From: Ruminococcaceae bacterium YAD3003
Lineage (GTDB): Bacteria; Bacillota; Clostridia; Saccharofermentanales; Saccharofermentanaceae
Direction of reading: 5' to 3'
NCBI GenBank assembly: GCA_900107185.1
Contig: FNPA01000005.1
Location: 1 to 64,000 of the forward strand
DNA: 64,000 nt
Shown: piece by piece, positions 1 to 28,791 of the stretch
Layout of the letters: every line of letters begins with the position of its first letter
How positions within the stretch are numbered: position 1 is the stretch's first letter
Translations under genes and position numbers: made by a program
The notes under the pieces: model-generated
What the model was told of the DNA's origin: nothing
Seen by the model: the letters and a program-made list of their open reading frames with translations, nothing else
Databases searched by the model: none

Positions 1-2
1 AC

Positions 3-118
3 CTGTCGACGATTTGTCGACGAAATCAGGCAAAAACGTCGACGTTTTCGTCAATTTAGGCCTGGATTGACGATTCTGTCGACGAAAAACGTTATTTCCG
101 TCGACATTTCGTCGACAG
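3..118. repeat. Mirror-symmetric array of six GTCGAC palindromes
   Basis: Six copies of the palindrome GTCGAC begin at 5, 16, 38, 78, 100 and 111. Their spacings are 11, 22, 40, 22 and 11 bases, so the array is an exact dyad about 60.5, which falls in the middle of an AGGCCT palindrome. A further pair of arms, CGTCAAT (49-55) and ATTGACG (66-72), lies on the same axis. Bases between the words match poorly, so it is the word positions that are conserved. There is no ORF here. It lies just beyond the terminator of the tRNA-Leu fragment. Function unknown; a similar design recurs at 28195-28313. Confidence 0.8.
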
Positions 119-130
119 AACCTTCTTTCG

Positions 131-177
131 AAAAGTAAAAGAGGCTGTTGCTTTTGTTTGCAACAACCTCTTCTTTT
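131..177 (-). terminator. Rho-independent terminator after tRNA-Leu
   Basis: Arms at 139-151 and 160-172 form a 13-base stem with one mismatch and an 8-base loop. On the minus strand the stem is followed by a T-rich run (complement of 131-138), directly after the tRNA CCA end. The plus strand also has a T run (171-178), so it could act in both directions. Confidence 0.8.
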
Positions 178-26903: not shown

Positions 26904-28118
26904 ATGGCAAAAGAAAAATTCTTACTGGCTTATTCAGGCGGACTTGATACTTCTATTATCATCCCGTGGCTTCTTGAACACTACGACTGTGAAGTAGTTG
27001 CTTACTGCGGCGAAGTTGGCGTTGGTGTTGATCACGACTATCTCGAGAAGAAGGCACTTAAGTGCGGCGCTATCAAGTGCATTATCGAAGACATTTCAGA
27101 AGAGTTCGTTTCTGATTTCGTTTTCCCTACTCTTAAGGCTAATGCAGTTTACGAGGGCAAGTACCTTCTCGGTACATCAATGGCTCGTCCTGTTATCGCT
27201 AAGCATTTCGTTGAGGCTGCTCACGCTAACGGATGCACAACAATCGTTCACGGCTGCACCGGTAAGGGTAATGACCAGGTAAGATTTGAACTCTCCATTA
27301 AGGCTCTCGATCCTGATATGAAGATCCTCGCTCCCTGGAGAATCTGGGACATCAAGTCTCGTGACGAGGAAATCGACTACGCTCAGGCTCGTGGTATCGA
27401 TGTTCCTGTTACTAAGGAAAACAATTATTCAAAGGATGAGAATCTCTGGCACCTATCTCACGAGGGTATGGATCTCGAAGATCCTGCTAATGAGCCTAAC
27501 CTCGACAAGATCCTTGAGCTCATGGTTTCACCTGAGAAGGCACCTGATACTCCTACTTATGTAACGATCAAGTTCGAGAAGGGTATCCCGGTTGAAGTTG
27601 ACGGACAGAAGCTCTCACCTGCTGATCTCCTCAGATACTGCAATAAGGTTGCTGCAGCTAACGGTGTTGGTATCGCTGATATCGTTGAGAACCGTCTCGT
27701 TGGTATGAAGAGCCGTGGCGTTTATGAGACACCTGGTGGAACACTCCTCTTCGCTGCTCACAGAGAGCTCGAGCTCCTCACAGTTGAGCGTGACACAATT
27801 CACTACAAGGACCTCGTAGCACAGAAGTTCTCTGAACTCGTTTACTATGGTCAGTGGTTCCACCCTCTCCGCGAGGCTCTCTCCGCATTCGTAGATAAGA
27901 CTCAGGAAGTTGTAACTGGTGAAGTTAAGATGAAGCTCTATAAGGGTAACTGCACACCTGCAGGCACAACATCACCCTTCTCACTCTACGATCCTGAGAT
28001 TGCTACTTTCGAGGCTGATGACGTTTACAACCAGGCTGATGCAGGCGGATTCATCAACTGCTTCGGTCTCCCTATGAAAGTTAATGCTAAGATGAAGCAG
28101 AAGAACGGTTTACTCTGA
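26904..28118 (+). CDS. argG: Argininosuccinate synthase
   Basis: ArgG joins citrulline and aspartate using ATP, the penultimate step in arginine synthesis. The 404-residue protein begins with the PP-loop ATPase motif [16 protein letters not shown] and retains the [23 protein letters not shown] and SPEKAPDTP segments. CGGAGGTG gives a strong ribosome binding site. Promoter and ARG-box-like site lie just upstream; argH follows beyond a GNAT gene. Confidence 0.97.
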
Positions 28119-28138
28119 TTTATAACTAAGATATATGA

Positions 28139-28169
28139 GGGCTGTCTCTGATTTGAGGCAGCCCTTTTT
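28139..28169 (+). terminator. Rho-independent terminator after argG
   Basis: GGGCTGTCTC and GAGGCAGCCC form a 10-base stem (one G-U pair) followed by five T residues. Confidence 0.88.
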
Positions 28170-28194: not shown

Positions 28195-28313
28195 TGTATA
28201 GGATTTTGTCTAGGATTTTTAGCCGATTTTCCTAGACAATTTCCTAGCAAACAGTAAATGCCAGCTTTTTGTCTAGGATTTTAAGCGGTTTTTCCTAGAC
28301 AAATTCCTATACA
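28195..28313. repeat. Mirror-symmetric array of CTAG-centred words
   Basis: Words of the type TTGTCTAGGA and its complement TCCTAGACAA, with variants at the ends (TGTATAGGA at 28195-28203, TCCTATACA at 28305-28313), are arranged as an exact dyad about 28254. The four-base cores begin at 28198, 28210, 28232, 28244, a degenerate CCAG at 28261, 28273, 28295 and 28307, so the spacings are 12, 22, 12, 17, 12, 22, 12. Each half can also fold as a hairpin with a perfect 10-base stem (28206-28239 and 28269-28302). It ends 19 bases before the GNAT start codon, so it may be in its leader. Function unknown. Confidence 0.8.
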
Positions 28314-28332
28314 CACTTCAGTGAGGGTACTT

Positions 28333-28791
28333 ATGCAGATTACATACAGGCTGATGACAATTGAAGACTACGAAGAAGCTTATGATCTCTGGATCAAATG
28401 CGGCAACGGACTTAATGATAAGGACGATTCCAGAGAAGGCATCGAAAAGTATCTTAAGCGTAATCCCACTACCTCCTTTGTTGCTGTTTGTGAGGGTAAG
28501 GTTGTTGGTGTAATATTATGTGGACACGACGGAAGACGTGGAATTATCCAGCATGCATGCGTATCACCTGATCACAGACGTGAAGGTATTGGCGCAAAGA
28601 TTGTTGAACTGGCGCTTGATGCACTTAAGGCTGAAGGAATCAACAAGGTTCTCTTAGTCGCTTTCAAAAAGAATGAAGGCGGAAATGCATTCTGGGAATC
28701 ACAGGGATTTACGCTTCGTGATGATCTTAATTACCGTAACAAGGCTCTGGCCGAGATGGTCAGAATAGATCCTGATTACGTAAAGGAGTAA
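28333..28791 (+). CDS. GNAT-family N-acetyltransferase between argG and argH
   Basis: A 152-residue acetyl-CoA-dependent acetyltransferase of the GNAT fold, with the acetyl-CoA loop RREGIGAKI and a C-terminal NAFWESQGF strand. It resembles the YpeA group. The start is taken at ATG 28333, with GAGGGT five bases upstream; an in-frame GTG at 28321 is possible. argH starts 4 bases after its stop. The position inside an arginine cluster suggests, but does not prove, a role in arginine synthesis, for example acetylating glutamate, or in modifying a pathway protein. Confidence 0.85.
   Translation: MQITYRLMTIEDYEEAYDLWIKCGNGLNDKDDSREGIEKYLKRNPTTSFVAVCEGKVVGVILCGHDGRRGIIQHACVSPDHRREGIGAKIVELALDALKAEGINKVLLVAFKKNEGGNAFWESQGFTLRDDLNYRNKALAEMVRIDPDYVKE

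Follow-up and report, generated by a model that had tools for sequence, protein, structure and literature searches.

The closest described counterpart of the arrays analysed here is the REPIN-RAYT system (REPtron). In the passages of PMC3116915 that describe it, a distinct repeat family lies beside each gene, further dispersed copies have no gene, and the repeats and genes are thought to diversify together. The arrays reported here resemble this description, as given in those passages, in being palindromic intergenic repeats with one repeat family per gene and with gene-less dispersed copies. The REPIN-RAYT feature that each repeat family lies beside one gene of one family is found in form at 32 of 41 loci, with another gene family. 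Unlike the Y1 HUH transposase of REPIN-RAYT, the neighbour here belongs to a nuclease-like family, and, again unlike REPIN-RAYT, fourteen intact genes of this family are present in the genome from which the DNA comes (the own genome). Each array strings together several short words, up to eight or more, with whole-turn spacing, whereas a REPIN consists of two inverted REPs.

A second comparison is with the GTAG/CGTC-tagged REPs, which the relevant passages of PMC3733652 present as extragenic palindromes that are often clustered, as are the arrays here. The same passages say that CGTC repeats have no transposase gene, and the main text of PMC3733652 has no occurrence of 'Firmicutes' or 'Clostridi'. 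Unlike these REPs, the array studied here has no GTAG or CGTC on either strand of 28195-28313. The recombination-promoting nucleases (Rpn), a variable bacterial nuclease family according to PMC10327210, were compared by name and by a Pfam scan. No report of the gene-array pair was found in the open-licence PMC literature.

The array between argG and the GNAT-family gene

The window, by which we mean the whole 64-kb stretch of DNA that was analysed, carries the array in the spacer between argG and a GNAT-family gene. The two gene names are those of an earlier note on this DNA. The features are as follows.

26904..28118, + strand: argG, the upstream neighbour, an open reading frame
28138..28169, + strand: argG intrinsic-terminator-like hairpin with a T run, recognised by eye
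28195..28313, no strand assigned: phased dyad array of the TGTCTAGGA word family, a dispersed copy whose matching gene lies outside the window on contig C15
28195..28203, + strand: word 1, TGTATAGGA, complementary to word 8
28207..28215, + strand: word 2, TGTCTAGGA
28230..28238, - strand: word 3, TCCTAGACA
28242..28250, - strand: word 4, TCCTAGCAA
28258..28266, + strand: word 5, ATGCCAGCT, degenerate
28270..28278, + strand: word 6, TGTCTAGGA
28293..28301, - strand: word 7, TCCTAGACA
28305..28313, - strand: word 8, TCCTATACA
28333..28791, + strand: GNAT-family gene, the downstream neighbour, with an alternative upstream GTG at 28321

The array consists of eight words of about 9 bp in two mirrored halves (layout W W n W' W' m W W n W' W'). 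The steps between 9-mer starts are 12, 23, 12, 16, 12, 23 and 12, those between CTAG centres are 12-22-12-17-12-22-12, and the dyad lies near 28254. All eight word positions given in the earlier note were right on recheck, and the array is real. The note had counted one degenerate word among the CTAG-centred words, and here only its positions stood: CTAG is exact in five of the eight words (28210, 28232, 28244, 28273 and 28295) and the centre is degenerate in three, namely the outer pair (ATAG at 28198 and CTAT at 28307, which are mutually complementary) and CCAG at 28261.

Folded as RNA, 28195-28313 forms one long hairpin (-51.5 kcal/mol) rather than the two 10-base hairpins for which the note had proposed a test. 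The very high stability of this fold (z -10.6) would suit an attenuator, a terminator or another structured RNA in the leader of the GNAT gene. No Rfam match above the gathering score was found in the window. The GNAT-family gene served as an anchor for finding orthologous spacers, and in 13 of them argG or its terminator precedes the GNAT gene, a count that leaves out loci with another upstream gene or that were not readable. Nine of the 13 have the terminator only and no array (G001, G004, G019, G022, G030, G032, G035, G051 and G052). The window array is present in the own spacer and in that of G055, and arrays of other words are present in those of G005 and G023 (the latter by eye). The earlier note would have counted it against its own reading if the argG-GNAT spacers of close relatives kept only a simple hairpin. 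The outcome is mixed, with nine terminator-only spacers on one side and, on the other, retention of the array in the relative whose GNAT protein is most similar. Since a similar hairpin occurs in species without the array, the hairpin at 28138..28169 is not part of it. The array lies downstream of the argG terminator, gene ends flank 14 of the 45 strong arrays (at least five words each) on both sides, and the pairing of the arms is not preserved (see below). We accordingly dropped the RNA-leader idea of the note, and an RNA element is in our judgement highly improbable.

A first word-free scan of the 64 kb returned just two arrays, at 4-117 and 28195-28313, compared with a mean of 0.1 in 20 shuffled windows. 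In an eight-word chain scan the two arrays scored 61.4 and 60.8, the latter being that at 28195-28313, and shuffled DNA gave at most 51.0 (about 184 kb) and 49.2 (1.26 Mb). By these scans the symmetry exceeds chance. The chain-scan threshold of 44 let through hundreds of chance peaks, and 50 to 52 was applied afterwards. BLAST placed the window array at three other sites of the own genome and a pattern search added a fifth copy at C30:11486. All five copies of the TGTCTAGGA family have the same geometry within one base. The copies were aligned by geometry because MAFFT misaligned the TGTCGACGA and TGGCG copies and because the BLAST orientation was wrong for L002, a palindromic copy that fitted better when reversed. 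In the named-species collection, from which own or very near records may be omitted, the TGTCTAGGANNNTGTCTAGGA pattern had six scattered matches where about seven were estimated by chance, suggesting that the word is not widespread.

The other array of the window lies at its start.

4..117, no strand assigned: phased dyad array of the TGTCGACGA word family, with word starts at 4, 15, 36, 48, 65, 77, 98 and 109

Its steps (11, 21, 12, 17, 12, 21 and 11) follow the plan of 28195-28313 with TGTCGACGA as the word, and the steps and scan scores bear out the claim that the two arrays share a plan and differ in word. The TGTCGACGA family contains CGTC. The gene-side counterpart of the 4-117 array is at C29:101208-101322 (L203/L257). 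An identical 172-bp stretch with the TGTCGACGA array stands at four contig ends (window 1-172, C15, C9 and C27), which, as far as an assembly can be read in this way, would fit two identical genomic copies. Two more diverged TGTCGACGA copies are on C29 and C11. The 172-bp repeat breaks the assembly, which makes the start of the window a contig end with an uncertain left flank. At 178-250, part of a minus-strand tRNA gene seemed by eye to run into an open reading frame, a possible misassembly near the contig end; ARAGORN found no tRNA in 1-2000.

The array-linked genes and their proteins

The plan of the window arrays recurs with other words. The own genome has it with TGTCGACGA, with TGGGAGTA (four arrays: L176 twice, L177 and L178), with TGGCGTA and with more. 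In G017 the words are TGTCGCTC and GGTCACT, and in G005 they are CGYYCAAAT, AATACGGCA and others. A general word-cluster scan revealed a second plan, of single words in alternating orientation, together with many coding-repeat clusters inside genes. No convincing intergenic array was found in 200 kb each of G061 and G064, which represent two genera from a single different family within the order. The matches there fell largely in coding or AT-rich DNA, with scores close to those of shuffled DNA (top chain 51.8, in an AT-rich genome with a shuffled maximum of 50.2), and the array-linked gene family described below is absent from these two genera.

When the genes beside strong arrays were compared, four arrays with four different words were found to adjoin genes of one protein family. 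In the own genome this family comprises 14 intact genes plus a broken one (the search gave 16 match rows, two of which are one gene); G005 has 10 genes, G017 has 4 and G055 has 13. The broken gene (L298) was set aside from the 42 loci and 41 were analysed. An array of at least four words lies within 307 bp at 32 of the 41 family genes compared to 59 of 537 ordinary genes of 200-340 aa, a background with a limit of 310 bp in which some family genes may be included. For arrays of five or more words the counts are 27/41 versus 31/537, and for six or more they are 12/41 versus 8/537. The words beside family genes vary from gene to gene. By the four-word criterion no array was present at nine of the 41 loci (L260, L264, L270, L280, L281, L286, L287, L293 and L294); there were traces at two of these, a weak chain (51.2) at L260 and CAGACA words, seen by eye, at L294.

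The period of the arrays follows the tree of the proteins. On a maximum-likelihood tree of the 41 proteins, the period is about 52 bp in clade 2, 60-64 bp in clades 1, 1b and 4, and 73-74 bp in clade 3. The period classes require 4 changes on this tree, compared with a mean of 12.6 and a minimum of 7 in 5000 label shuffles, none of which was as low. The test covered 31 loci in three classes, with L265 unclassed and four ties given 63, the class of their clade. The exceptions to the clade period are L263 (61, 73, 73; classed 74 by double words) and L288 (64, 64, 74). The partnership between the word arrays and the gene family is well supported within this one genus. At E 1e-10 the family was found in 59 of 59 genomes of the genus, in some of which the sole match is weak and perhaps another protein with the same domain, versus 1 of 40 genomes of the order's other families. 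At 1e-15 it was found in 8 of 299 genomes of a phylum sample, the own genome included, and some of these matches are long open reading frames.

The array-linked proteins are about 260 aa long and have a clade-specific N-terminal part and a PD-(D/E)XK-like C-terminal part. The C-terminal ~60-130 aa are similar to two candidate defence proteins of PADLOC. All of the six proteins tested, which cover all clades, matched the C-terminal end of PDC-S68 (6.7e-5 or better), and two of the six matched HEAT_CxxC_PD-DEXK (2.8e-5 and 4.5e-6). A phage Holliday-junction-resolvase family was matched weakly by one of the six (1.7e-4). The PDC-S68 profiles are about 1200 aa long and match at their C-terminal end, whereas the array-linked proteins are far shorter, have another N-terminal part and go with intergenic arrays. 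No Pfam family, and no Rpn family, passed the cut-off among the proteins tested, NCBIfam gave none for two proteins, and the PDB held no solved relative. The conserved columns are RSxxE, YE, DF and (E)H.G, and the canonical catalytic lysine was not recognised. We read these columns as those of a PD-(D/E)XK-like (Vsr/DUF559-like) nuclease, and the C-terminal part may have nuclease activity. The N-terminal part is likely to be the reader of the word. In a tblastn search, 6 plasmid records and 2 phage records gave distant matches, none of which covers 80% of the query, and in five of the six plasmid records the same C-terminal part was found in large proteins that are annotated as AAA ATPases or RecD-like helicases. 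There were no relatives of the array-linked protein among viral contigs. The same nuclease-like C-terminal part was also seen in long open reading frames of the genome searches.

These proteins bear on the reading of the arrays as a REPIN/RAYT system, in which palindromic repeats are moved by a Y1 (HUH) REP transposase. The logic is the same, with a repeat family beside its own gene, dispersed copies and, in the passages cited above (PMC3116915), a suggested co-evolution. The adjacent gene here is from another protein family, however, and the window array lacks GTAG. PF01797 had no matches in the own genome, which is 99.9% complete, or in G005, G017 and G055, and is present in 16 of 59 genomes of the genus. 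Because the Y1 transposase is missing we reject this reading, which we regard as scarcely conceivable.

As a separate observation, L286 (on C25 of G055) and L287 (on C20 of the own genome) encode near-identical proteins in two species (branch 0.015), and no array was detected beside either gene. The pair suggests a recent transfer or, alternatively, a member of the family with another role.

Matching of words to genes, spacing and pairing

The 45 strong arrays comprise 4 home arrays and 41 dispersed arrays. A dispersed array was scored as matching when at least four of its words occurred in the surroundings of a family gene, with whole genomes searched for genes and part of each genome for arrays; shuffled words usually gave 1-3 in this test and in single cases up to 7 or 8. 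The best match was a gene of the same genome for 15 of the 41 dispersed arrays and a gene of another genome for 6 (L035, L159 and L162 of the own genome; L093, L220 and L222 of G005), with 1 tie and 19 that had no good match. The TTGGGGTAAA arrays led to L285 (with 10 and 9 words), four arrays of the TGTATCGAAA type in G005 to L278 (6 to 8), the CGTTCAAAT-type arrays to L291 (7 and 6), ACGGACTAA to L297 (6) and TGTCGACGA to L257 (5). The TGTCTAGGA arrays matched L261 with 3 to 6 words, the window array having 3 with the word used in that match. L261, the matching gene of the window array, is at C15:58089-58856, with a reading frame that stops 1 bp short of the gene's own TGTCTAGGA array. No matching gene was found for the G005 families AATACGGCA and AATCGGGCA in a whole-genome gene search. 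This comparison of words across loci shows a home locus for many word families, with an array next to a family gene, and further arrays in other intergenic gaps. It points to proteins that each recognise a word of their own and assist in spreading or maintaining it.

Sister proteins can have related words, as in L257 (TCGTCGACA) and L259 (TCGTCAATA) or in L288 (ACCCACTAA) and L289 (CCGACTAA/CCGATTAA); the words of the sister pair L284 and L292 are unlike. In the same spacer of G055, the ortholog of the window array has TGTACAGTT and CAGTTTTTTG in place of TGTCTAGGA. The G055 array beside L262, the sister of L261, is also without TGTCTAGGA, and has TGTACAGTT in no exact copy and in two within one mismatch. 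Counted as exact copies and copies with at most one mismatch, TGTCTAGGA occurs 4/6 times in the own window array, 4/5 times in the own gene array and 0/0 times in both the G055 ortholog and the G055 gene array. The corresponding counts for CAGTTTTTTG are 0/1, 0/0, 3/4 and 1/3. By these counts, the word of the window array and that of the matching gene array differ in the same direction between the two species. Another G055 array keeps TGTCCAGGA, which is closer to the own word.

The earlier note had proposed that the arrays belong to a family of elements in which the word is exchanged or evolves together with a recogniser, and four results speak in favour of this. The same plan occurs with other words in the same genus; arrays of many words adjoin a single protein family and their period follows the protein tree; the dispersed arrays match as counted above; and the G055 ortholog array and the array of the sister gene share a changed word. 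Together, these comparisons of genomes support the proposal.

The spacing of the words was examined in 113 intergenic clusters of at least four words (49 in 843 kb of the own genome, 51 in 800 kb of G005 and 13 in 400 kb of G017). Some of these clusters are chance, the shuffled samples having given 48.6, 12.5 and 100 clusters per Mb, and overlaps between neighbouring stretches were removed from the set only where the sequence was identical. Distances between words on the same strand peak at 51-53, 61-64, 73-75 and 104 bp, that is at 5, 6, 7 and 10 helical turns. The Fourier resultant of the same-strand distances at 10.5 bp was 0.436 (n=353) for intergenic clusters versus 0.027 (n=637) for clusters inside genes, which instead gave 0.54 at period 3. 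Opposite-strand distances showed little phasing (resultant 0.076, n=528). The whole-turn spacing on the same strand argues for a protein on one face of duplex DNA.

The words stay conserved as the spacers between them drift. Two TTGGGGTAAA arrays of the own genome have words and offsets in common and spacers that are mostly unlike, and two ACCCACTAA/ACCGACTAA arrays of G055 keep the words with spacers that are still recognisably similar. Among 99 adjacent arm pairs in arrays of at least five words from the own genome, G005 and G017, both arms were consensus in 38, one was changed in 40, and both were changed and non-complementary in 21. None was compensated, giving 0 of 61 among the pairs with a changed arm in a strict test in which only identical words counted as complementary. 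Hairpin pairing in the arrays is not preserved. Against this, the two outer words of the window array differ in concert between the own genome and G055, and G055 has units with matching arms.

These last two observations would be expected if there were no recogniser, with template switching in quasi-palindromes keeping the words alike and common descent giving the shared plan; the G055 blocks of ACCCACTAA and ACCGACTAA units each have matching arms, as this explanation would have it. However, the absence of compensation in all 61 changed arm pairs counts against template switching, which also predicts neither the whole-turn spacing, nor the adjacency to genes, nor a period that follows the protein tree, nor the identity of words across loci with drifted spacers. 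We consider it improbable.

Within G055, one array (L250, L253) has blocks of ACCCACTAA units and of ACCGACTAA units, as though one word were giving way to another a unit at a time.

Position, spread and origin of the arrays

Within 500 bp of the 45 strong arrays there are 83 flanking open reading frames, a few of them double-counted, of which 50 face the array with the 3' end and 33 with the 5' end. The side on which the array lies beside its family gene depends on the clade: 5' in clade 2 (11/11) and clade 3 (4/4), 3' in clade 4 (5/5), and mixed in clades 1 and 1b. Without being mobile, the arrays might serve as binding or regulatory sites, forming a platform on which the protein acts as a DNA-binding regulator or silencer, with the home array as its operator and the dispersed arrays as targets or decoys. 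The constant 5' side in clades 2 and 3 agrees with this, and the strict helical phasing fits cooperative binding. The 3' side in clade 4 does not, nor do the 14 strong arrays flanked by gene ends, the variable presence of arrays between species of the genus or the nuclease-like C-terminus. A platform without mobility is therefore rather unlikely in our view, though well ahead of the other rivals discussed above. A promoter operator as the general role is out, given the 14 of 45 strong arrays between gene ends.

Three convergent gaps with an own array (L176) were compared with those of relatives. The array-less relatives (G052 and G032 at the first gap, G052, G032 and G004 at the second, and G004 at the third) have 29 to 96 bp between the aligned blocks, and the own genome has about 220 to 360. 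G055 is without ACCCACTAA words at the second gap and has, by eye, a seemingly different word family at the first; the remaining relatives have other DNA in the three gaps. The dispersed copies, the array-less orthologous gaps and the presence of different families at one gap would all fit mobility. Set beside a MITE of a DDE insertion sequence, the arrays do have inverted ends, and by eye no consistent target-site duplication was noticed in their flanks, so that transposition is unproven.

We think it probable that the window array belongs, as a dispersed copy with no gene beside it, to a nuclease-linked repeat system in which each word is read by its own oligomer and copying is driven by the nuclease. 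In such a system, an oligomer of the protein would attach to one face of duplex DNA at the ~9-bp word specific to that protein; the clade-specific part would read the word, and the period of 52, 63 or 74 bp would be set by the oligomer. The nuclease part would nick or break DNA at the arrays, and repair would copy arrays to new gaps and keep their words alike. Nuclease activity, mobility, the role of the N-terminal part and nuclease-driven copying are what we infer here.

The broader reading is that of an undescribed selfish or domesticated bacterial system of fast-diversifying small word-reading nucleases, each driving its own helically phased arrays, with ten or more enzyme-word pairs side by side in one genome and with switches caught mid-way. 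We see this as evenly poised. Candidate specificity switches would be TGTCTAGGA versus TGTACAGTT and ACCCACTAA versus ACCGACTAA. If this is true, REPIN-RAYT is not the sole gene-plus-palindrome partnership in bacteria, and a different nuclease-like family has reached the same arrangement, with many enzyme-word pairs inside single genomes. The pairs would then offer a natural collection of ~9-bp DNA specificities built on a single protein scaffold and, as the words beside the genes would be a read-out of specificity, the DNA-recognition code of the family could be worked out from sequence. The persistence of such repeats without an autonomous transposon would become testable.

In G005, five loci (L081, L083, L088, L094 and L099) are intergenic islands of several hundred bases in which two or more word families lie close together.
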